NCBI GenBank assembly: GCA_036376135.1
Contig: DASVAW010000045.1
Span: forward strand, 1 to 64,000
Direction: 5' to 3'
Length of the DNA stretch: 64,000 nt
Source: Candidatus Polarisedimenticolaceae bacterium
GTDB lineage: Bacteria; Acidobacteriota; Polarisedimenticolia; Polarisedimenticolales; DASRJG01
Shown here: positions 38,848-50,144 of the stretch, piece by piece
Layout: the number at the start of each line of letters is the position of its first letter
Position numbering within the stretch: position 1 is the first letter of the stretch
Notes under the pieces: generated by a model
Seen by the model: only the letters and a program-made list of their open reading frames with translations
Database searches by the model: none
Told to the model about the DNA's origin: nothing
Translations under genes and position numbers: made by a program

Positions 38848-39861
38848 TCAGCGCATGTCCGCGAGTTTCCGGATCAGGTCGACGACCCGGCAGCTGTATC
38901 CCCACTCGTTGTCGTACCAGGTGATGGTCTTGACCAGGGTGCCGCCGAGGACCCGCGTCGACGGGGCGTCGAAGATCGCCGAGTGCTCGTTCTGGATGAT
39001 GTCCGACGAGACGATCGGCTCCTCGCTGTACTCCAGGACCCCGGCGAGCGGCGGCGTCGAGGCCGCCCGCTTCATCGCGGCGTTGACCTGCTCGACGGTC
39101 GCGGGCTTCTCGAGCTCGGCGACGAGGTCGACGATCGAGCCGTCGGGAACGGGGACGCGCATCGCGATGCCGTCGAGCTTCCCCTTCAGGGCGGGCAGCA
39201 CCTTCCCGACCGCGCGGGCGGCGCCCGTGGTCGTCGGGATGATGTTCTCGTTCGCCGCACGCGAACGCCGCAGGTCCTTGTGGGGGACGTCGGCGAGGCG
39301 CTGGTCGTTGGTGTACGCGTGCACCGTCGTGATGTATCCCTTCACGATCCCGAAGTTCTCGTGCAGGACCTTCGCGACCGGCGCGAGGCAGTTCGTCGTG
39401 CACGAGGCGTTCGAGATGATCCGGTGCTCGGGGCGCAGGCTGTCGTCGTTGACCCCGAAGACGATCGTCGCGTCGACCTCGTCCTTGGCGGGGACCGTCA
39501 GGATCACCCGCCCCGCCCCCGCCTGGAGGTGGAGCGCGCACTCCTCCTTCGACCGGAACTTCCCCGTCGCCTCGACGACGATGTCGATCCCCATCTCCCC
39601 CCACGGGAGCTTCGCGGGGTCCTTCTGCTGAATCATCGTGACCGTCTGACGGCCCGCGTGCATCTTCCCGTCCGCGATCGTCACCGTCCCGGGGAACTTC
39701 CCGAAGACGGTGTCGAACCGCGTGAGGTAGGCGAGCTGCTCGGGCGGCGTGATGTCGTTGATCGCGACGACCTGGACGTCGTCGCGGGAGGAGAGCAGCC
39801 GGAAGACCGAGCGTCCGATCCGGCCGAACCCGTTGATCGCGACCTTGGGCACCTTGGCCAT
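38848..39861 (-). CDS. gap: glyceraldehyde-3-phosphate dehydrogenase (copy 2)
   Basis: Oxidises glyceraldehyde 3-phosphate with NAD(P) and phosphate to 1,3-bisphosphoglycerate. 337 residues: VAINGFGRIGRSVFRLL (dinucleotide loop), SNASCTTNCLAPVAKVL with catalytic Cys154, TTVHAYTNDQRLAD with His181, and the C-terminal YDNEWGYSCRVVDLIRKLA. Classical sequence throughout, in contrast to copy 1 upstream. ATG at 39861, five bases after the copy 1 stop. Both share a promoter at 40935-40964. Confidence 0.94.
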   Translation of the reverse strand: MAKVPKVAINGFGRIGRSVFRLLSSRDDVQVVAINDITPPEQLAYLTRFDTVFGKFPGTVTIADGKMHAGRQTVTMIQQKDPAKLPWGEMGIDIVVEATGKFRSKEECALHLQAGAGRVILTVPAKDEVDATIVFGVNDDSLRPEHRIISNASCTTNCLAPVAKVLHENFGIVKGYITTVHAYTNDQRLADVPHKDLRRSRAANENIIPTTTGAARAVGKVLPALKGKLDGIAMRVPVPDGSIVDLVAELEKPATVEQVNAAMKRAASTPPLAGVLEYSEEPIVSSDIIQNEHSAIFDAPSTRVLGGTLVKTITWYDNEWGYSCRVVDLIRKLADMR

Positions 39862-39866
39862 CGCCC

Positions 39867-40892
39867 TCACCTCCCCGCCGGAAGCGCGGTCTCGAACGCG
39901 GACAGCTTGAGGACCAGCTCGACCACGCGCGAGGCGTACCCCCATCCGTTGTCGTACCAGGTGATCGTCTTCAGGAGGTTTCCGCCGAGGACGGCGGTCG
40001 AAAGGCCGTCGAAGACGGCCGAGTGCGTGTTCCCGATCACGTCCGACGAGACGACCGGCTGGTCGGTGTACTCGATGACGCTCCGGTACCGGGTCGCCGC
40101 GGCCGACTTCACGACCTCGTTGACCTCCTCCACGGCGACGGGCCGCTTCATCAGCGTGACGAGGTCCACCGTCGACCCGTCGGGGACGGGCACGTTCAGC
40201 GCCATGCCGTCGAGGCGCCCCTTCAGCTCGGGGAGGATCCGCTCGACGACCTGCGGCGAGAACGTGGTCGTGGGGATGATGTTCTCCGCCGCCGCCCGCG
40301 AGCGGCGCATCTCGGTGTGCGGGACGTCGGCGAGGCGCTGGTCGTTCGTGTAGGCGTGGACCGTCGTCATGAAGCCCTTCTCGATGCCGAAGGCGTCGTT
40401 GAGGACCTTGCAGATCGGCGCCAGCGCGTTGGCGGTGCAGGACGCGTTGCTCACGATGCGCGAGTCCGGGGTGAGGATGTGGTCGTTGACTCCCATCACG
40501 ACCAGCGCGTCGATCTCGTCGCGGGGCGGGACGGTGAGGATCACCCGCTTCGCCCCCTTGTCGAGGTGCCGCTGGAGGGTCTCCCGCGTCCGGTACTGGC
40601 CGGTGGCCTCGACCACGATGTCGCAGCCGAGCTCCCCCCATTCCACGTCGCCCGGGGCCTTCTTCTGGAGGATCCGGATCTGGCGGCCCTTGCAGTACAT
40701 GCTGTCGCCGGTGACCCAGACCGGCTCGCGGAAACGTCCGTGGACCGTGTCGAACTTGAGGAGGTACTCGAGCGCCTTGGGATCCGCGATGTCGACGATC
40801 GCGGCGATCTCCACGTCCGACCGGTCGTAGAGGATGCGGAAGACGTTGCGGCCGATGCGGCCGAAGCCCATCAGTCCGATGCGAATCGCCAT
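39867..40892 (-). CDS. gap: glyceraldehyde-3-phosphate dehydrogenase (copy 1)
   Basis: 341 residues, about half identical by eye to copy 2. RIGLMGFGRIGRNVFRILYD at the start, Cys152 in SNASCTANALAPICKVL, His179 in TTVHAYTNDQRLAD, NGWGYASRVVELVLKLS near the end. The active-site motif is SCTAN instead of SCTTN, which is rare; the substituted Thr normally contacts the phosphate of the substrate. Asp34 in the AAIVDIADPKALEYL region suggests NAD preference. Likely an isoenzyme for a different flux direction or cofactor. First gene after the operator/promoter at 40920-40964. Confidence 0.9.
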   Translation of the reverse strand: MAIRIGLMGFGRIGRNVFRILYDRSDVEIAAIVDIADPKALEYLLKFDTVHGRFREPVWVTGDSMYCKGRQIRILQKKAPGDVEWGELGCDIVVEATGQYRTRETLQRHLDKGAKRVILTVPPRDEIDALVVMGVNDHILTPDSRIVSNASCTANALAPICKVLNDAFGIEKGFMTTVHAYTNDQRLADVPHTEMRRSRAAAENIIPTTTFSPQVVERILPELKGRLDGMALNVPVPDGSTVDLVTLMKRPVAVEEVNEVVKSAAATRYRSVIEYTDQPVVSSDVIGNTHSAVFDGLSTAVLGGNLLKTITWYDNGWGYASRVVELVLKLSAFETALPAGR

Positions 40893-41078: not shown

Positions 41079-42236
41079 CTAATAGGCCAGAGCGAGCTCA
41101 TGAGGAGAGTTGGGGATTCCGGGCGTGATCCAGGTGCGACGGTAGACCTCCAGCCAGCTCGCCGGGACCCGGACGCGGGCCGGGAACAATCGCCGCGCCA
41201 GTACCCGCGCCCAATTCCACGGCTCACCCGTCAGACCCAGTCGCATCGCCGGCGTCGTGCGGTCGGGCTTGCGCTCGGAGACCCCCTTCACGAAGTTCCG
41301 CCACGCGATTGCGAGGTAAAGACGCTCGAGGATCGCGTTGGTCCGCCGCCCGAACGCGATCGTCTCCCGCCTATGGTGGCTCTCCGAGTGCCGCAGCAGA
41401 CCGTGCAGCGCATCGACCGGGAACATCGCGCGGTCGCGAACGACGGCTTCGGCGCTTCGCGGCGACCTTTTCGGACCGCGCTTCGGATTCGCGTAAGCGG
41501 CGTGCCGGATCCTGCTGCGGAAGGCGGGTCGTGAGAAGACCTGCCGGTAGCTCGGGTGCCCGTCGGTGGTGAGCCCGATCGCGCGTTCTTCTGGGAAGAA
41601 ATGCAGCAGCGCTTCGATCACCCGAGTCATCGAGCCTTCATAGCCCCCGCGGGATGGCTGCGGGGGCCGGTTGCGTCGCTTCGCCTCCTGGAACGTGGAC
41701 CGCTTGCCGGCACGGGCGTGGGGGGCGGGGTCGAGGGCGTACACGAACGGCGACGTCTTCCCGACGACGGTGGCGACGCCGACCGGGTAGTCCTGCGTGC
41801 CCACGAAGGTCTCGAAGTGATCGGCGACGAGCTCTTCGTCGAGAGAAGCGAGCTCGGCCAGTGCCGAGGCGGTCAGGAGCAGCGCGTGTCGACCGAGCCG
41901 CGCGCTTTGCCGGGTGACGGTCGAAGGCGCGCACCTCAGCGACCGTGCGAGCTGGCGGTGGCAGGAGCCGGCCTGGAGCCCCGCGAAGATGGGGACCAGC
42001 AGCTCGGGACGCTTGAGGAAATAGGTCAGCGCGAACGCCTGCTTGCTGGAGGTCTTGCCGCAGGCCAGGCAGCGATAACGCGGAACCCGACGTCCGTCCC
42101 GTCGGCGGTACGAGCCGTGAGCTCGGAACCGGAACGCCTCCCCGTGCTGAAGGGTGTGCTGCGGGCAGTCCCGCCGGGGGCAGAATCGGGGCACGAAACG
42201 GCGTTGTTTCTCGACCGTTTGAATCGGCCAGCGCAT
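41079..42236 (-). CDS. DDE transposase with N-terminal zinc ribbon, IS1-like
   Basis: 385 residues. Two CxxxxC/CxxC pairs (FCPRRDC, Cys19 and Cys24; RCLACG, Cys56 and Cys59) form a zinc ribbon; a helix-turn-helix follows (GSCHRQLARSLRCAPSTVTR). The catalytic core likely uses Asp139 (VADHFETF), Asp225 (LTTDGHPSY) and a Glu at 285 or 291 (RHSESHHRRE). This is the InsA plus InsB order of IS1 in one reading frame, without the frameshift used by IS1 itself. I start at the ATG at 42236; the frame is open upstream into the right repeat but lacks family similarity. Frame is intact, so the element could still be active. Confidence 0.8.
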   Translation of the reverse strand: MRWPIQTVEKQRRFVPRFCPRRDCPQHTLQHGEAFRFRAHGSYRRRDGRRVPRYRCLACGKTSSKQAFALTYFLKRPELLVPIFAGLQAGSCHRQLARSLRCAPSTVTRQSARLGRHALLLTASALAELASLDEELVADHFETFVGTQDYPVGVATVVGKTSPFVYALDPAPHARAGKRSTFQEAKRRNRPPQPSRGGYEGSMTRVIEALLHFFPEERAIGLTTDGHPSYRQVFSRPAFRSRIRHAAYANPKRGPKRSPRSAEAVVRDRAMFPVDALHGLLRHSESHHRRETIAFGRRTNAILERLYLAIAWRNFVKGVSERKPDRTTPAMRLGLTGEPWNWARVLARRLFPARVRVPASWLEVYRRTWITPGIPNSPHELALAY

Positions 42237-42370: not shown

Positions 42371-42431
42371 GTCCGTATACTGGCGGCCCGATTTCGCGGG
42401 AACCCGCCCGCGACGAGGTTCGTTTCCCTTC

Positions 42432-43019
42432 ATGACCGGACGCGACGAGGATGACAAGGCCGCCTCCGACCTCCGGGACGTGGAGGCGGTGCTCGCCGGG
42501 AACGCGGGAGCCTACCGCGGCCTCGTCGAGCGGTATCAGGGGATGGTCGCGGGACTCGCCTGGCGTTACGGCGTGAGGCGGGAGGACATCGAAGACGTGA
42601 CGAGCGACGTGTTCATCAAGGCCTACGAGAACCTGGGATCGTACCGCCCGGACCACCCCTTCGGAACCTGGCTCTACCGTCTGGCGGCGAACCACGTGAT
42701 CGACCAGGCGCGCCGGAGGAAGAAGGAACGGCTGCGGTCCGACATGCCCGAGCAGGTCGCGGACCCCCGGCCCGGCGCGGAGAGCGCCGTCGAGGTCGAC
42801 GAGCGGGACTCGCTCGTCCGCGGCGCCCTCGGCGCGGTCGACGGCCGTTACCGCGACGCCCTCTTCCTGGTCTACGTCGAGGGCCGGCGTGTCGACGAGG
42901 CGGCGGCGATCCTCGGCATCCCGGAGGGGACGATGAAGACGCGGCTCATGCGCGGCCGCGAGGCGTTGCGGCGGGTCCTCCAGCGCCGCCATCCCGAGCA
43001 CTTCGGAGCGCCGTCGTGA
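42432..43019 (+). CDS. ECF (sigma-70 family, extracytoplasmic function) sigma factor
   Basis: 195 residues. Region 2 is YQGMVAGLAWRYGVRREDIE to DVTSDVFIKAYENLGSYRPD, followed by PFGTWLYRLAANHVIDQARR; region 4 is LFLVYVEGRRVDEAAAILG with IPEGTMKTRLMRGREALRR. A charged linker separates them, and no region 1.1 or 3 is present. Likely controls an envelope-stress response together with the next gene, a putative anti-sigma protein coupled by a GTGA overlap. The IS insertion 61 bp upstream sits between the usual -35 position and the -10-like TATACT, so its promoter may have been rewired. Confidence 0.92.
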   Translation: MTGRDEDDKAASDLRDVEAVLAGNAGAYRGLVERYQGMVAGLAWRYGVRREDIEDVTSDVFIKAYENLGSYRPDHPFGTWLYRLAANHVIDQARRRKKERLRSDMPEQVADPRPGAESAVEVDERDSLVRGALGAVDGRYRDALFLVYVEGRRVDEAAAILGIPEGTMKTRLMRGREALRRVLQRRHPEHFGAPS

Positions 43020-43459
43020 GCGGGCCCGATCCGATCCTCGACGCCCTCGCCCGCCTCCGGCGCGCCGAGGCCCCCCGCGTGGACGTCGCCTCGCGCGTGA
43101 TGGCGCGCGTCGCCGTGCTTTCCGTCCCCGCGCGCCCCGAGCGACGGTACGGCCTGGGCGTCGCCGCGTCGATCGCGTTCGCCCTCACCGCGAGCGCCGC
43201 GGGGGCGCAGCTCGCGGGTCCGCTCCGATCCGCGGCCGCGGACGTCGTCCCCGCGATCCTCGCGGTCGTCCGCGGATTCGCGATCGCCGCCGCGGCCGCG
43301 ACCGAGGCTCTCGTCCGCATCGCCGGGGGGCTCGACGGCGTGCGCGCGCTCGGCCAGGCCACCGGTGTCGCGGCGCTCGCCGCCGCGGGCAGCCTCGCCT
43401 TCCTGCTGCTGGCTCGCGAGATCCGCCGCGCGCCGGCCCTCGCCCGGAGCTCCCGATGA
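43016..43459 (+). CDS. probable membrane anti-sigma factor
   Basis: 147 residues. A cytoplasmic N-terminus (DPILDALARLRRAEAPRVDV) leads to two or three hydrophobic helices (GLGVAASIAFALTASAAGAQL, ATGVAALAAAGSLAFLLL) with an Ala-rich segment between. There is no clear zinc anti-sigma (ZAS) motif HxxxCxxC. Its position directly after the sigma factor with a GTGA overlap is the main reason for the call, and the sequence alone would not support it. Stop overlaps the next ATG. Confidence 0.5.
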   Translation: MSGPDPILDALARLRRAEAPRVDVASRVMARVAVLSVPARPERRYGLGVAASIAFALTASAAGAQLAGPLRSAAADVVPAILAVVRGFAIAAAAATEALVRIAGGLDGVRALGQATGVAALAAAGSLAFLLLAREIRRAPALARSSR

Positions 43460-44442
43460 TCACCCTCGCCGCCCTGGTCTTCCTGCTCGGCGCGTCCCCG
43501 ACGCCCGCGGCGCCGCCGGACCCGCCGGCTCCGCCCGCCGTCCAGGCCCCGCCCGCCTTCGACGACCCGTCGTTCCCGTTCGGCGGGGACGAGGGCGAGA
43601 CGTCGTTGCGGCGGGTGCGGGAGCAGGTCGCGGTCGGCAGCGACGTTCACGTGGAGCGCGACCAGCTGGTCGAGGGCGACGTCGTCTGCGTCGGCGGCGC
43701 GGTACGCATCGACGGCGTCGTCCGCGGGGACGTGGTGGTCGTAGGCGGCCGGCTCGACGTCTCCGGCACGGTCCACCAGCAGGTGGTCGCGGTCGGCAGC
43801 CGCGTGCGGATCGACGACGCCGCCCGCGTCCGGGGCCAGCTCGTGACCGTGCTCGGCAAGCTGGATCGCGACAAGGCGAGGGTCGACGGCGAGGTGACGA
43901 ATCTCTCCTTCGGCGGCCTGTTCGTCCCGACCGGGGTGGGGATCGCGGGGCTGGCCTTCGCGGCGATCGCCTGGGATGCCCTGGTGCTCCTCGCGACGGC
44001 GTTCGCCGTGCTCGCGCTCGCCGCGCTGGCCCCGGAGCGGATCGAGCGGATCGCCGCGGCGGGGCCACGGTCGCCGTTCGCGGCCGTCGGGGGCGGCATT
44101 CTCGGCTACGTGCTCGTCGCGATCGTGCTCGGCGTGCTCGTGATCACGATCCTGGGGATCCCCGTCGCGATCCTGCTCTGGTGCGCCTTCACGCTCCTGA
44201 AGTGGATGGGGCTCGCCGGCCTGTCGCTCGCGATCGGGCGCCGGCTCGCGCGGGGCTTCGGCAAGAGCCTCCCCCTCGCGGCGGCGGTCCTCCTGGGGTT
44301 CCTTCCCCTCGCGATCCTCAGGCTCGTCCCGTTCGGGGTCGGCTGGGCCCTCTGGTTCCTGGTCGAGATCTTCGCGGTCGGGTGCGTGATCGCGTCCCGC
44401 GCGGGGCGCGCCGCGCCGGAGTCGATCCCGGCTCCGGTGTAA
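43456..44442 (+). CDS. membrane protein with bactofilin/polymer-forming-like domain
   Basis: 328 residues: signal peptide, Pro-rich segment (PPDPPAPPAVQAPPAF), then a right-handed beta-helix-like stretch of short repeats (HVERDQLVEGDVVCVGGAVR, IDGVVRGDVVVVGGRLDVSG, TVHQQVVAVGSRVRIDD) of the polymer-forming type, and four or five transmembrane helices from about residue 150 (GLAFAAIAWDALVLLATAF, GILGYVLVAIVLGVLVITIL). Such proteins may form or anchor cell-surface or cytoskeletal polymers; unlike bactofilins it is fused to a membrane domain. ATG overlaps the preceding stop (ATGA). Confidence 0.7.
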   Translation: MITLAALVFLLGASPTPAAPPDPPAPPAVQAPPAFDDPSFPFGGDEGETSLRRVREQVAVGSDVHVERDQLVEGDVVCVGGAVRIDGVVRGDVVVVGGRLDVSGTVHQQVVAVGSRVRIDDAARVRGQLVTVLGKLDRDKARVDGEVTNLSFGGLFVPTGVGIAGLAFAAIAWDALVLLATAFAVLALAALAPERIERIAAAGPRSPFAAVGGGILGYVLVAIVLGVLVITILGIPVAILLWCAFTLLKWMGLAGLSLAIGRRLARGFGKSLPLAAAVLLGFLPLAILRLVPFGVGWALWFLVEIFAVGCVIASRAGRAAPESIPAPV

Positions 44443-44453
44443 GATCCGCCGTC

Positions 44454-46487
44454 ATGTCCGCCATCCCCCCGGACGCGCCGGGCGTCCTCGTCCTCCGCGG
44501 CCGCGCGACGTCCCCGGGACTCGCGTGCGGACCGCTTCGTCGCAATCGCGCCGACGCGGCGCCGAAGGACATCGAGGGGGGGATCCTCGTCGCCGAACGC
44601 GCCGTCCCGGACGACGTCGGCCGCATCCTCTCGGCTTCGGGAACGCTCACCCTCTCCGGCGCGGTCCTCTCGCATGTGAGCCTCCTGTCACGCGAGTTCG
44701 GCAAGCCTTCGGTCGCCCTGTCCGGCGGGAGCCGCGCGCGGCTGCTGGCCGAGGGGGACGGCCTCCTGCTCCTCGAGGACATCGTCGGAGGATCCGGCCC
44801 CGCGGTGCTCGTCGAGGGGGACGTGGTCCTGCTCGACGGCGACGACGGAGTGGTGCGCGTGCCGGGAGGGGTCGACCTCGACGAGCGGGCCCGCGTGCGC
44901 GCGGTCCACGCCCCGCTCGCGTCGTACGCGACGCTCCCGGACGACCCGAACCTCCTCCAGGCGCTGGTGGTCGCCTGCGAGAACCCTCACGGCGCGGCGT
45001 TTTCGTACCTGCTCGAGGCCGCGCTGCTGCACCGCCGCGTCCCCGCCGGCCCTCCGGCGAAACGCCTGATCGCCGCCTTCGCCGCCGATCCGACGCACGC
45101 ACACGCCCTCGGCGAGCGTCTCGCGTGGATCCGCGCCAAGGTCGAGACGCGCGCGGCCGCCCGGTGCCGCTCCGCCGAGGAGGCGATCACGGCGGCGGAG
45201 GACCTCGACGAGCTCGAGAGGGTGCTTCGGAGCGTCGAACGAGCCGTCGAGCGCGACGCCGCGGTGCTCGAGGACGTCGACGCCCCGACCGACCTTCTCG
45301 AGGGCGGGCTCGACCCGGTCCTGAAGGCGGCGGCCGCACGACGCGATCTCCTGCGCGGGCGCATCGACACGGAAGTCACCGAGGCTCTGGCGCTCGACGA
45401 CGAGGCGCTGCGCCCGAGACTGGGCGGACTGTTCCGCCTGCTCCGCCGGGCGCGCGCGGCGCGGGTCTCCGACGCGCGCCTCACGGAGCTGCATTCCCGG
45501 CTCGCCCGCCAACTCGCCGCCGAGCGGGCACGGGCGGGGATGCACCTCGTCCTCCCCCTCCGGGCCGACGGCCCGCGCGAGCGCGGCCTGATCGGGGGGA
45601 AGGCCGCGGGTCTCCTCGAGGCGGCCCGCGCGCTTCCACCCGACTGCCGCATTCCCCCCGCCTTCGTCGTCACCGCCTCCTCGTACCGCCTGCACCTGCT
45701 CGGCGAGACCGGCGAGCGCCTCCGACAGGCGACCCTCGAGAGCGCCGACGAGGCGACGCTGTCGCGACGGGCGCGGGCGGCCCTGCTCTCGGGCGCGATC
45801 CCCGAGGAGGTCCAGGAGGCGGTGGAGCAGGCCTACCTCGAGCTCGGCGAGCCGCGCGTTGCGGTCCGGTCGTCGGCCACGATCGAGGACGCGCCCATGG
45901 CGAGCCTCGCCGGGCTGTTCGACACCTACCTCGGCGTGCTGGGGCTCCCGAACGTCCTCGACCGGATCCGGTGGGCGTGGGCTTCGATGTGGAACGCACG
46001 GGCCCTCGCGGCGCTCGGAGCGGCCGGGATGTCGCCGCTCCGCGCGGCGCAGGCGATCCTCGTGCAGCAGGCCGTGGAGACGCGCGCCGCCGGAGTCCTG
46101 TTCTCCCGGGACCCGGCGGGGCGGGCGGACACGATGCTCGTGAACGCCACCTGGGGGCTGGGGGAAGGGATCTCCCAGGGCGAGATCGCGGGGGACCTGT
46201 TCTGGGTGCGCCGGAGCACCGGCGATCTCGTGGCGACCGAGGCCGGGGGCGGGACGAAGCAGATCATCCTCGACCCCGCGGGCCTCGGCACCGTCGAGGT
46301 CCCGCTGCCCCGGGAGCGCCTCGGACTCCCGTGCCTTTCGACCGGGGACCTGTCGCGACTGGCCGCGCTGGCCCAGTCCCTGGAGGCGGCGACCGGACGC
46401 GCCCAGGACGTGGAGTTCGGGTTCGGACCCGACGACGAGCTGGTGGTGTTCCAAATCCGCAGAATCGTGCCGCACCGCACCGCCTGA
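44454..46487 (+). CDS. permuted phosphohistidine/ATP-grasp dikinase (glucan water dikinase-like order)
   Basis: 677 residues. The N-terminal swivel domain carries SGAVLSHVSLLSREFGKP with phosphohistidine candidate His74; VLSHVS is close to the motif of plant glucan water dikinase. Residues about 100-370 are helical linker. The C-terminal ATP-grasp (PPDK_N) domain has GLIGGKAAGLLEAARALP, IPPAFVVTASSYRLHLLGE, VAVRSSATIEDAPMASLAGL, WAWASMWNARAL, VLFSRDPAG and VEFGFGPDDELVVFQIRRI. PEP synthase and rifampin phosphotransferase have the opposite order, and no PEP/pyruvate TIM barrel or carbohydrate-binding module is present. Chemistry: beta-phosphate of ATP to His, then to an unknown acceptor; the acceptor cannot be read from the sequence. 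Confidence 0.78.
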   Translation: MSAIPPDAPGVLVLRGRATSPGLACGPLRRNRADAAPKDIEGGILVAERAVPDDVGRILSASGTLTLSGAVLSHVSLLSREFGKPSVALSGGSRARLLAEGDGLLLLEDIVGGSGPAVLVEGDVVLLDGDDGVVRVPGGVDLDERARVRAVHAPLASYATLPDDPNLLQALVVACENPHGAAFSYLLEAALLHRRVPAGPPAKRLIAAFAADPTHAHALGERLAWIRAKVETRAAARCRSAEEAITAAEDLDELERVLRSVERAVERDAAVLEDVDAPTDLLEGGLDPVLKAAAARRDLLRGRIDTEVTEALALDDEALRPRLGGLFRLLRRARAARVSDARLTELHSRLARQLAAERARAGMHLVLPLRADGPRERGLIGGKAAGLLEAARALPPDCRIPPAFVVTASSYRLHLLGETGERLRQATLESADEATLSRRARAALLSGAIPEEVQEAVEQAYLELGEPRVAVRSSATIEDAPMASLAGLFDTYLGVLGLPNVLDRIRWAWASMWNARALAALGAAGMSPLRAAQAILVQQAVETRAAGVLFSRDPAGRADTMLVNATWGLGEGISQGEIAGDLFWVRRSTGDLVATEAGGGTKQIILDPAGLGTVEVPLPRERLGLPCLSTGDLSRLAALAQSLEAATGRAQDVEFGFGPDDELVVFQIRRIVPHRTA

Positions 46488-46525: not shown

Positions 46526-47779
46526 ATGCGAACGCTCCCCGTCGCCGCCGCGCTCCTCGCCGCGATCCCCTGCCTCGCCGCGACCGTCCGTCCCGAAACC
46601 GAACGCGGCGCGCTGCGGTTCGTCGCCCCGAGGGACCTGTCGACGGTGCTCGGGCCGGCGACCTTCGCGCTCGCCGTGGAGCCGCCGGAGGGAACGCAGG
46701 TGGTCCGCGTCGAGGTTTCCCTCGACGCCAGGCTCCTCGTCGTGCTCGAGGCGCCGCCGTGGACGGCGAGCTGGGACGCCGGCGAGGAGGGCGGGAACCA
46801 CCGGCTGGCCGCGCGGGCGATCCTCTCCGACGGCCGCGAGCTCCACGCCTCCGTCCGCACGAGCCCGCTTCGCATCGACCAGGTCGTGGAGGTCGCGCTC
46901 GTCAACGTCTACGCGATCGCCAAGGACGGCAAGGGCGACTACGTCCGCGATCTGCGCGCGGAGGAGATGCGCCTTTTCGAGAACGGGCGGCCGCAGCTGA
47001 TCGAGCGGTTCAACGCCGAGCGCAAGCCGTTGCGCGTCGCGCTCGTCCTCGACACGTCGCTGAGCATGCGCGGCGACAAGATGGAGGAGGCCAAACGCGC
47101 GGCGCTCGAGTTCCTGGACGTCCTGCAGGCGGGGGACGAGGCGATGGTCGTCGCGTTCTCGGACCGCGTCGAGATCCTCCGGGACTTCACCTCCGACCGG
47201 GAGGCGCTCGAGACGGCGATCCGCACGGCCGTCCCGAAGGGCGGGACCGCGCTGTACGACGCGATCTGGACCGCTTCGGAACGCCTGGCGCCGCTGGACT
47301 CCCGGCGCGTGATCGTGCTCCTGTCGGACGGGAAGGACGAAGCGGCGTCGGGGCTGGAGCCCGGAAGCCTCCACAACTTCGACGAGGCGATCGAACGCGC
47401 GCTTCGGAGCGAGGCGATGATCTTCGCGATCGGCCTGGGCAGCACCCTCGCCCGCGACGCCAAGCGCCTGGAGTCGGACCCGGCGGCCTCCGCCGACCAG
47501 ATGGACTTCTACGGCCGCAAGCCGCTCGCCGCGATCCTCAACGAGTTCTCGCGATCGACCGGCGGCCGCGCGATCTTCTCCGCGAGCGCCGGCCGCGTCC
47601 GGCGGGCCTTCGAGGAGGTGGCCGAGGACCTCCGCCACCAGTACGTGCTCGCCTACGCCCCCGACGACCGCCGCCACGACGGATCGTGGCGCGAGATCCG
47701 CGTCCAGAGCACCCGCGCCGGCGTGTCGTTCACGAACCGATCGGGGTACTACGCTCCGAAGGATCGGGCGACGCGCTGA
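46526..47779 (+). CDS. secreted VWFA-related protein (Acidobacteriota-type)
   Basis: 417 residues: signal peptide (MRTLPVAAALLAAIPCLAAT), a beta-sandwich domain (20-120), then the VWFA-related region (125-417): VEVALVNVYAIAKDGKGDYV, RALVLDTSLSMRGDKMEEAK-like MIDAS DxSxS, GGTALYDAIWTASERL, VIVLLSDGKDEAASG and the C-terminal RHQYVLAYAPDDRRHDGSW with SGYYAPK. This domain is common in Acidobacteria and predicted to bind divalent metal and a protein partner. I chose the ATG at 46526; an ATG at 46508 is also in frame. Ends with a 50-bp overlap with the convergent LAB_N gene. Last gene of the ECF operon. Confidence 0.85.
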   Translation: MRTLPVAAALLAAIPCLAATVRPETERGALRFVAPRDLSTVLGPATFALAVEPPEGTQVVRVEVSLDARLLVVLEAPPWTASWDAGEEGGNHRLAARAILSDGRELHASVRTSPLRIDQVVEVALVNVYAIAKDGKGDYVRDLRAEEMRLFENGRPQLIERFNAERKPLRVALVLDTSLSMRGDKMEEAKRAALEFLDVLQAGDEAMVVAFSDRVEILRDFTSDREALETAIRTAVPKGGTALYDAIWTASERLAPLDSRRVIVLLSDGKDEAASGLEPGSLHNFDEAIERALRSEAMIFAIGLGSTLARDAKRLESDPAASADQMDFYGRKPLAAILNEFSRSTGGRAIFSASAGRVRRAFEEVAEDLRHQYVLAYAPDDRRHDGSWREIRVQSTRAGVSFTNRSGYYAPKDRATR

Positions 47780-48053
47780 CCACGGGCCGCCCCCGACGGA
47801 TCAGGACCAGGTTGCGGACGTAGACGACGAGCCCCGCCGCCTGCCCGACGATGAAGACGGGGTCGCCGCGGTGGATCGCGTAGGCGAGGAGGGCTCCTCC
47901 GCCCGCGAGCGAAAGCCACCAGAACGCGGTGGGAACCACGCTCCGGCGCTTGCGCTCGGACGCGATCCACTGCACGAGGAAACGACCCGAGAACATCGCC
48001 TGGCCGAGGAACCCCAGGGCCAGCCAGTCGTGCGGAATGCGGTCAAGGATCAT
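47730..48053 (-). CDS. lipid A biosynthesis N-terminal domain (LAB_N) protein
   Basis: 107 residues, three transmembrane helices, with DWLALGFLGQAMFSGRFLVQ, WIASERKRRSVVPTAFWWLS and GQAAGLVVYVRNLVLIRRG. This is the LAB_N family found next to glycosyltransferases and ArnT-like enzymes; it is not the LpxB catalytic domain. Probably takes part in transferring sugars onto lipid A through an undecaprenyl-linked intermediate. The ATG (48053) overlaps the GT2 gene by 11 bp, and the 3' end overlaps the VWFA gene on the other strand by 50 bp. Confidence 0.85.
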   Translation of the reverse strand: MILDRIPHDWLALGFLGQAMFSGRFLVQWIASERKRRSVVPTAFWWLSLAGGGALLAYAIHRGDPVFIVGQAAGLVVYVRNLVLIRRGRPVVSASPDPSERSTPIGS

Positions 48054-48762
48054 GACGCTCGATCTCCCACGCCAGGCGCCGGCGTTGCATCCACCGCACC
48101 GCGAAGAGGTCGGCCGTCGCCCGGAACACGCGGTTCCAGACGCCGTACTTGCTCGCCCCCTTCAGTCGCGGCCGGTGATTCACGGGGACCTGCACGACGC
48201 GCCCGCCCTCCATCTTCACGAGCGTGGGGAGGAAGCGGTGCATGCCGGTGTAGAGCTTGATCGGGGCCAGGGCCTCGCGGCGGAACGCCTTGAGCGAGCA
48301 GCCGGTGTCGATGACGTCGTCGCCGGAGAGCCGGTTGCGCACGGCGTTGGCGATCCGCGACGAGACGCGGCGCAGCCACGTGTCCCTGCGGCTCGCGCGG
48401 TACCCGATCGCCGCCGCGTGCCCCGGCAGGGCGGCGAGGAGGACCGGGATGTCCTTGGGGTCGTTCTGCAGGTCGGCGTCCATGGTGACGACGACTTCGC
48501 CGCGGGCGTGCTTGAAGCCGGCGTCGAAGGCGGCCGTCTGCCCCGCGTTGCGCCGGAAGTGCAGGCCGCGGAGCTCGGGGACCTCCCGGACGAGCTCCAC
48601 GATGCGCTCCGCCGAGCCGTCCCGGCTCCCGTCGTTGACGAGGACGATCTCGAAGGGGCGCCCGAGCGGACGCAACACCCCGACGATCTCCTCCACGAGG
48701 GGCCCGAGGTTCTCGCGCTCGTCGTAGACGGGGATGACGACCGACACGTCGGGCGCGCTCAC
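48043..48762 (-). CDS. GT2 family glycosyltransferase (polyprenyl-phosphate sugar transferase-like)
   Basis: 239 residues. GT2 motifs: VSVVIPVYDERENLGPLVEE, FEIVLVNDGSRDGSAERIVE, VVTMDADLQNDPKDIPVLLA (DxD), DDVIDTGCSLKAFRREALAP, YTGMHRFLPTLVKMEGGRVV. This is the dolichyl/undecaprenyl-phosphate mannose or ArnC-like subgroup; it has no C-terminal membrane domain, so it probably acts with the membrane proteins next to it. GTG start within the kinase stop (GTGA). The combination GT2, LAB_N, ArnT-like GT is typical of lipid A or surface-sugar attachment systems. Confidence 0.88.
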   Translation of the reverse strand: MSAPDVSVVIPVYDERENLGPLVEEIVGVLRPLGRPFEIVLVNDGSRDGSAERIVELVREVPELRGLHFRRNAGQTAAFDAGFKHARGEVVVTMDADLQNDPKDIPVLLAALPGHAAAIGYRASRRDTWLRRVSSRIANAVRNRLSGDDVIDTGCSLKAFRREALAPIKLYTGMHRFLPTLVKMEGGRVVQVPVNHRPRLKGASKYGVWNRVFRATADLFAVRWMQRRRLAWEIERHDP

Positions 48763-49451
48763 GCCTCCCCCCGCCTCGCCTTGCGGTTGAACGGCCACAG
48801 GCGACGCCATCGCGCGAAACGCTCGACGAACGCACGTTCCTCGTCGGTGAAGGTATCCGGGGCGAGCAGCGCCTTCCACTTGAGGAGCGCCGCGCGGTCG
48901 GCCGCGGCGAGGAGCCGGAACGGCACGCCCCGGGGATCGAGCCGCAACGCCGCCGCGAGGTCCACGACGACGAGGCTGCCGTCCGCGCGCACGAGGACGT
49001 TCTCCCGCCCCCGCAGGTCGTTGTGGACGAGCCCCCGCGCGTGAAGGCCGGAGACGAGCGCGCGCAGCTTCTCGACGTAGCCCGCCCCGCGCTCGAACCG
49101 GTCGGGGGCGAACGCGAGCTGCTGTCCGTCGATCCTCTCGATCGCGATCGCGTGCGCGTCCACCCTGCCGAAGAAGCGCGGCACGCCCTCGACCCCCTCG
49201 AGGTGCCGGTACGCCGCGGCCTCGCGCCCGATCTGGACGCGGCCGAGCAGGCGCGTCCACCACGGTTTCGACGCGAAGTCCTTCACGACCATCGCCCCGT
49301 CGCCGAGGTCCACGAGGAGCAGATCGGCCTTGTTGGAGGCGCCGCGGTGGAGCACGCCGACCGTCGCCGCCGCGATCTCGGCCCGTCTCGGGACGCGTGG
49401 TACCGTGTGCGGGCTCGAGGTGTTCAATGCAGCCAATCTCAACGCACGCAA
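48759..49451 (-). CDS. small protein kinase-fold enzyme, Kdo/heptose-kinase or RIO-like (copy A)
   Basis: 230 residues. Kinase elements: Lys57 in GAMVVKDFASKPWW, Glu77 in GREAAAYRHLEG, catalytic loop LVHNDLRGRENVLV with Asp145 and Asn151, and LVVVDLAAALR with metal Asp164 (DLA in place of DFG). Closest by pattern to LPS core kinases (WaaP/KdkA) and RIO1-type kinases. Its place beside a GT2, a LAB_N and an ArnT-like gene suggests phosphorylation of a lipid A core sugar. TTG at 49451 is far upstream of the fold; several TTG codons lie in the first 10 codons, so the start is uncertain. Confidence 0.7.
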   Translation of the reverse strand: MRALRLAALNTSSPHTVPRVPRRAEIAAATVGVLHRGASNKADLLLVDLGDGAMVVKDFASKPWWTRLLGRVQIGREAAAYRHLEGVEGVPRFFGRVDAHAIAIERIDGQQLAFAPDRFERGAGYVEKLRALVSGLHARGLVHNDLRGRENVLVRADGSLVVVDLAAALRLDPRGVPFRLLAAADRAALLKWKALLAPDTFTDEERAFVERFARWRRLWPFNRKARRGEA

Positions 49452-49460
49452 AGGGTTACA

Positions 49461-50144
49461 GTGAGTCGAGGACCGGCCGAGTCTAGCACAGCGTGGGAGG
49501 CGCTCCTCGGGCGCACCCTCCCCCGGCGGGTCGTTCCCGGGCGCAATCGGACCAAGGCCGACGTCTCGTTCTACGACCTCGACGGCCGCCGCGTGGTCGT
49601 GAAGTCGTACGCGGCGCGACCCTGGTGGGTCCGCGCGTCACTCGGCCGCTGGCTGATCGCCCGCGAGTGTCGCGCGTACGTCGCCGCCGGCGGCGCCGCG
49701 GGCCTGCCGCGCCTGCACGCCCGCCCGGCGCCGTCGTCGCTCGTCCTCGAATGGGTCGACGCGGAGCCGCTCTCCTCCCTCGGAGCGACGCGCCTGGACC
49801 CCGCGGTGTTCGACCGGCTCGACGCGATCGTCGCGGCGCTCCACGCCCGCGGTGTCGCCCTCGGGGATCTGCACCACCGCGACGTGCTCGTGGGGGCCTC
49901 CGGCGTCTTCGTGGTCGACCTCGCGACGGCGTGGGTGCTCGGGCCGCGCCCGGGGCGGTGGCGCCGCTTCCTGTTCCGCCGCCTCTCGATGCAGGACCGG
50001 CTCGCCGCGGCGCGGCTGCGGGCCCGGTTCACCGGGATCTCCGAGGAGCAGGCCCTCGCCTCGGTCCCCAAGGAGGCTCTCGTCTGGCACGCGCGCGGCC
50101 GCGCGCTCAAGCGCGCCTTCGACCGGATCCGTGGCCGACGCTGA
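49461..50144 (+). CDS. small protein kinase-fold enzyme, Kdo/heptose-kinase or RIO-like (copy B)
   Basis: 227 residues, a divergent paralogue of the neighbouring gene: Lys48 in RRVVVKSYAARPWW, catalytic loop ALGDLHHRDVLVGASG with Asp136, and FVVDLATAWVLG with Asp153. The metal-binding Asn of copy A is replaced by Asp141, so its activity may differ. The N-termini of the two genes share the order NRTKAD-strand-VVVK-PWW. GTG start; only nine bases separate it from the divergent copy A start, so the two may share a promoter region. Downstream comes an isoprenylcysteine methyltransferase-like gene. Confidence 0.7.
   Translation: MSRGPAESSTAWEALLGRTLPRRVVPGRNRTKADVSFYDLDGRRVVVKSYAARPWWVRASLGRWLIARECRAYVAAGGAAGLPRLHARPAPSSLVLEWVDAEPLSSLGATRLDPAVFDRLDAIVAALHARGVALGDLHHRDVLVGASGVFVVDLATAWVLGPRPGRWRRFLFRRLSMQDRLAAARLRARFTGISEEQALASVPKEALVWHARGRALKRAFDRIRGRR

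Follow-up and report, generated by a model that had tools for sequence, protein, structure and literature searches.

The window, by which we mean the whole stretch of 64,000 nucleotides that was analysed, comes from a genome whose placement in the order Polarisedimenticolales was inferred from its closest named record, Candidatus Polarisedimenticola svalbardensis (Acidobacteriota). A gene for a dikinase with its phosphohistidine swivel domain in front lies on the forward strand in an operon headed by an ECF sigma factor gene, with the following features:

42399-42426 (+): ECF-type promoter, GGAACC-N16-CGTTTC, with no other match in the window (chance expectation 0.01)
42432-43019 (+): ECF sigma factor, 195 aa (Sigma70_r2, E 3.6e-17; Sigma70_r4_2, E 4.6e-12)
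43016-43459 (+): small membrane protein, 147 aa, in the anti-sigma position (assigned by position and a 4-base overlap with the sigma gene)
43456-44442 (+): exported or membrane protein with a bactofilin-like beta-helix region, 328 aa (signal-peptide-like N terminus; sub-threshold PF04519)
44454-46487 (+): swivel-first dikinase, 677 aa (ORF, Pfam, AlphaFold2, Foldseek)
46526-47779 (+): exported VWA-domain protein of the acidobacterial type, 417 aa (TIGR03436, 202 bits; cut-off 81)

The sigma factor scored above the cut-off of TIGR02937, and its best-scoring NCBIfam equivalog was SigW; since this score lies below the SigW cut-off, we infer the envelope-stress role, and the operon is probably of the stress-response type (SigW-like, envelope stress). 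The window protein in the anti-sigma slot matched no Pfam family, and its counterpart in relative G004 gave a match, below cut-off, to the anti-sigma zinc finger zf-HC2. The PF04519 match of the bactofilin-like protein was sub-threshold both in the window and in G001, and homologues of this protein were found in 33 of 41 genomes of the class.

The sigma, anti-sigma-like and bactofilin-like genes stand together in many genomes of the class, with the VWA gene added in the order. The arrangement sigma, anti-sigma-like, bactofilin-like, dikinase, VWA is conserved in G000, G004, G002, G006 (where no gene was called in the anti-sigma slot) and G001, and G008, whose contigs split the operon, fits the same order; the VWA gene follows the dikinase gene in all six genomes that have the latter. 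Two relatives, G005 and G003, carry the bactofilin-like gene and then the VWA gene with no dikinase gene between them, and their flanking genes are for the most part the same. Upstream of the sigma gene, the element GGAACC/GAAACC-N15/16-CGTT[TC]C is present in six of seven genomes of the order (the window, G004, G002, G006, G008 and G005), each match arising in no more than 0.05% of shuffles, and a looser form is present in the seventh (G001). The promoter has the usual ECF form and points to autoregulation of the operon by the sigma factor. A regulon search with this promoter gave 39 matches in the genome, nearly all of those inspected being intragenic, and no further targets. An earlier sequence-only reading of this DNA had placed the dikinase gene in an ECF sigma operon, which the sigma Pfam matches, the conserved gene order and the conserved promoter bear out.

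The surroundings of the operon are as follows. A transposase-like gene (41079-42194, minus strand; zinc ribbon, sub-threshold HTH_38 and IS1 matches) lies upstream of the sigma gene, in the place taken in several relatives by a divergent gene for a Lon-related protease. Two tandem GAPDH-like genes (38848-40892, minus strand) adjoin the region, as also in G004, G006, G008 and G001. The conserved downstream block (47730-50144) holds genes for a protein with a lipid A biosynthesis N-terminal domain, a glycosyltransferase of family 2 and two small kinase-like proteins that form a divergent pair, of which one matches RIO weakly; the block is mostly syntenic and is partly found in genomes without the dikinase as well.

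Domain order, predicted fold and catalytic residues of the dikinase

The dikinase ORF consists of 677 open codons with codon usage of the coding type, and its product divides as follows:

44484-44864 (+): phosphohistidine swivel domain, residues 11-137, with His74 (PF00391, E 1.2e-9; Foldseek 2fm4, TM 0.70)
44871-45536 (+): all-helical region, residues 140-361, family unmatched (pLDDT about 94)
45549-46466 (+): ATP-grasp domain of the PPDK/RPH type, residues 366-671 (PF01326, E 1.6e-59; Foldseek RPH ATP-grasp, TM 0.83-0.86)

Pfam placed PEP-utilizers (PF00391) at residues 41-132 and PPDK_N (PF01326) at 379-671, and NCBIfam and PDB sequence searches returned matches to these two domains only, both standing in the reverse position relative to PEP synthase, rifampin phosphotransferase (RPH) and PPDK. 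The AlphaFold2 model, built on alignment A6 with 16 aligned rows (mean pLDDT 84, pTM 0.64), consists of the swivel at residues 11-137, nine helices at 142-361 with pLDDT of about 94, and the ATP-grasp domain at 366-671; Foldseek assigned the C-terminal part to the ATP-grasp fold of RPH, HpeI and PEP synthase, and the N-terminal part to the carrier domain of PPDK.

The sequence-only reading had put a swivel domain with His74 first and a PPDK-type ATP-grasp domain last, an order opposite to that of PEP synthase, PPDK and RPH, and had proposed PF00391 and PF01326 profile searches together with AlphaFold modelling as a check. Pfam and AlphaFold2 agree on this order, with PPDK_N matching the C-terminal half and both quoted motifs found, and the reversal was upheld by the Pfam, NCBIfam and PDB searches. 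Its uncharacterised helical region (residues 100-370) corresponds to the nine helices at 142-361, for which there was no family or fold match; in particular, neither Pfam nor the PDB hits listed showed a known PEP-binding or rifampin-binding domain in this linker. The observation is real and the order of domains was given correctly; the functional guess that accompanied it was over-extended.

A frameshift or mis-assembly artefact was rejected, since the same architecture is found in five other genomes, as four full-length orthologues and one short one with 48-54% identity to the window protein. Also rejected were a reading as a defence system (no PADLOC match) and a plasmid or phage origin, where the matches listed covered the ATP-grasp domain only and none of all the matches covered 80% of the query. 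The protein has no evident export signal, and the best reading of its sequence is a cytoplasmic enzyme core that looks catalytically intact and is predicted to be active.

Residues H74, R80 and E81 of the swivel and K383, R472, E654, Q667 and R669 of the ATP-grasp domain are invariant in all six orthologues, the latter set fitting the GGK, VRSS, E and Q-x-R motifs of dikinases. From what is known of PPDK, we take H74 to be the phosphorylated His and K383, R472, E654 and Q667/R669 to be the ATP-site residues Lys, Arg, Glu and Gln-x-Arg of a dikinase, a mapping of residues to roles that rests on motifs and not on a solved complex. For the swivel, the motif T/S-x-x-G-G-x-x-x-H has been published, and position -2 of its His is a regulatory Thr in PEP synthase and PPDK and a Met in RPH-like proteins (PMC12167813). 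The window protein has T-x-x-G-A-x-x-S-H, without the usual GG; among the orthologues T66 and H74 are invariant, the first Gly is kept in the full-length proteins, and the second is replaced by Ala or Thr. Position -2 of His74 is an invariant Leu72 in place of the regulatory Thr, so that control of the dikinase through the PEP synthase regulatory route appears unlikely.

Distribution, the helical region and the large swivel-first family

The comparison material comprised genome sequences alone, mostly metagenome-assembled. Swivel-first proteins are rare: homologues with both domains were ATP-grasp-first in 69 cases, and the same fetched loci held seven distinct swivel-first proteins (23 entries including duplicates), six from the operon family and one paralogue, a ratio that is not a census because the loci were drawn with patterns from the dikinase family. 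The operon dikinase is present in six of ten Polarisedimenticolales genomes, if the short form is included; full-length homologues were found neither in 31 other genomes of the class nor in the rest of the 297 genomes sampled from the phylum. All swivel-first proteins found belong to Acidobacteriota and fall into two groups, the operon dikinase and a large family whose genes adjoin a malic enzyme-phosphotransacetylase (PTA) gene. On the best reading of this distribution, the operon dikinase would go back to the ancestor of the order, or have been acquired there, and some lineages would have lost it.

The helical region, 220 aa between the two catalytic domains, matched no Pfam family (best E 0.11, below cut-off) and nothing recognisable among the PDB hits listed. 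Its mean identity among the five full-length proteins is 33%, against about 61% for the swivel and ATP-grasp domains, and it contains invariant Arg residues (R145, R149, R297, R322, R331, R334, R358 and R360). It is present in five of the six orthologues and absent from that of G001, a protein of 420 aa in the same operon position in which the swivel and ATP-grasp domains, with motifs intact, are joined by a few tens of residues. Relocation of the linker within G001 was rejected, since the rest of that genome showed no linker sequence. This single linkerless case also lacks part of an ATP-grasp hairpin (FSRDPAG), and its function may be altered. Because the G001 orthologue keeps only the swivel and ATP-grasp domains, the simplest reading is that the linker would be dispensable for the chemistry and the acceptor would be bound elsewhere.

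The paralogue in this genome (contig C151; L033:2519-7309, minus strand; 1,596 aa) has relatives of 42-46% identity in four other acidobacterial families (L201:7854-12779, L202, L203:6940-11682 and L204:8259-13439), the large family measuring about 1,600-1,700 aa. The malic enzyme-PTA gene adjoins the large swivel-first gene in all five acidobacterial genomes seen, the fusion having been recognised from Pfam matches in this genome and from sequence similarity in the other four. Swivel, middle and ATP-grasp of the C151 paralogue are collinear with those of the operon dikinase over 652 columns (hhalign 100%), and the middle region alone gave 26% (P 7e-4), with unrelated segments below 1%. The large family differs in its gene neighbours and in about 880 extra aa at the N terminus, for which there was no family or solved-structure match. 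In the ATP-grasp tree, which has long branches, the operon family and the large family each form one group, and a sister relation between the two is not resolved. The large proteins are possibly pyruvate-linked dikinases; their place beside malic enzyme-PTA suggests a further dikinase, of which no description was found.

Proposed mechanism and its alternatives

Our main reading, to which we give a probability of roughly 55%, is that the protein is a stress-induced accessory dikinase that would pass phosphate from ATP to His74 and from there to an acceptor held elsewhere. In the presumed half-reaction, the ATP-grasp domain would bind Mg-ATP and transfer a phosphate, probably the beta-phosphate, to His74 of the swivel, with release of AMP and Pi. 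The swivel would then move and hand the phosphate to the acceptor, whose site most likely lies outside the helical region; the acceptor would be on a partner protein or be a small molecule that binds elsewhere. An acceptor in trans is proposed on the strength of the G001 orthologue, reduced to the swivel and ATP-grasp domains in the same operon, and the split dikinases HpeHI and PpsAB provide a precedent. The enzyme would be an accessory of the operon, since G005 and G003 have the operon without it, and would presumably be induced together with the other genes. A narrower and doubtful proposal is that this class of swivel/ATP-grasp fusions, 420 aa long in one lineage, might act as a stress-induced phosphohistidine donor to a separate protein or an envelope precursor. 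With full-length, linkerless and absent forms of the dikinase, the one operon offers a natural comparison for a role of the middle region in acceptor binding.

That very role is what a possible, though rather unlikely, alternative assigns to the helical region, which would be the acceptor-binding domain of a single-chain small-molecule dikinase, comparable in role to the rifampin-binding domain of RPH but on the opposite side of the swivel, G001 having changed or lost the function. The region is well folded (pLDDT about 94), occurs in five of six orthologues with invariant Arg residues, changes quickly, like the acceptor domains of the RPH family (PMC4844700), and has a counterpart of similar size in the same place of the large paralogues; however, the operon of G001 is otherwise intact but lacks it, no ligand-binding fold was matched, and its homology across the two families is weak when taken alone (hhalign 26%).

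Much less probable is a water dikinase for a glucan or envelope glycan, with a function related to that of the plant enzymes GWD and PWD (glucan and phosphoglucan water dikinase). The domain order is that of GWD and the residue at -2 of His is hydrophobic, but GWD1_pHisD, a carbohydrate-binding family, the CFATC motif and an evident export signal are all missing. The envelope-glycan acceptor that the earlier reading drew from the exported neighbours fares no better, since two relatives keep these neighbours without the dikinase and the neighbours are therefore independent of it. We give very little credence to a PEP synthase-like enzyme whose substrate would be pyruvate or a related C3 acid, bound at a new acceptor site: malic enzyme yields pyruvate and the large swivel-first relatives always adjoin its PTA fusion, yet the operon dikinase has no such neighbour, lacks the PEP-utilizers_C barrel and reaches 195 of the 740 bits set for PEP_synth, and the genome already has a PPDK of standard order. 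Just as improbable is a regulatory or degenerate protein that has lost phosphate transfer; the second Gly of the swivel loop is gone and the gene is missing from several relatives, whereas all recognised catalytic positions are invariant down to about 50% identity.

Comparison with known dikinases

RPH shares with the window dikinase its ATP-grasp fold (the best PDB match, TM 0.83-0.86 by target length), a His swivel, the lack of a pyruvate-binding barrel and the lack of a regulatory Thr at -2 of His. The order in RPH is ATP-grasp, rifampin-binding domain and swivel (PMC4844700), whereas the window protein has its swivel first and a different helical middle, and scored 157 bits against NCBIfam NF041857 (cut-off 999). 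PEP synthase and PPDK have homologous swivel and ATP-grasp domains but in the reverse order; the window dikinase has no PEP/pyruvate barrel (no PEP-utilizers_C match in Pfam), has Leu72 and not Thr at -2, and scored 195.5 bits for TIGR01418 (PEP synthase, cut-off 739.75) and 28 bits for TIGR01828 (PPDK, cut-off 843). Membership of PEP synthase, PPDK or RPH was rejected on these scores, which lie far below the NCBIfam cut-offs.

The two-component dikinases HpeHI, CreHI and PpsAB have an acceptor part separate from the ATP-grasp part (PMC12167813), a separability that the window dikinase would share, along with the same proposed chemistry. Their swivel is fused to the acceptor domain and their ATP-grasp domain stands alone, whereas the window dikinase has swivel and ATP-grasp in one ORF with no acceptor domain recognised. 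A split dikinase was also observed in G044 (L034:6303-10440), where one ORF ends in a swivel domain and a nearby ORF begins with PPDK_N, in fusion with a histidine-phosphatase domain.

Among swivel-first dikinases the best known are the plant enzymes GWD and PWD, in which, as in the window dikinase, the swivel precedes a C-terminal PPDK-type ATP-grasp domain. The nucleotide-binding domain of GWD is C-terminal (PMC5575247), its phosphohistidine region has been described, and GWD and PWD have no solved structure (PMC12892837). The VLSHVS context of the window protein had been read as closest to these enzymes, which the analysis did not support: there was no match to GWD1_pHisD (PF22973) at E<=1 in Pfam, and KPSVALS stands where GWD has, after the His, the redox motif CFATC (PMC7569903, PMC5575247). 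Moreover, GGPLSHSSIVARE occurs in the standard-order bacterial proteins L091 and L099, so that the LSH-S context is not diagnostic of GWD. GWD1_pHisD was not found anywhere in the genome, the control genomes being prokaryotic and likewise silent. CFATC is variable even among plants. The lack of a carbohydrate-binding module, claimed from the sequence, was confirmed by Pfam, the CBM45 tandem and CBM20 of the plant enzymes having no counterpart here; the organism is also a different one, and the bacterial protein has a long helical spacer. Judged by domain order, profiles and motifs, the protein would act as a dikinase with its domains in the GWD order, and its likeness to GWD appears to end there. 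The compact bacterial proteins of 420-677 aa would be tractable models for a swivel that acts from the other end of the ATP-grasp domain.
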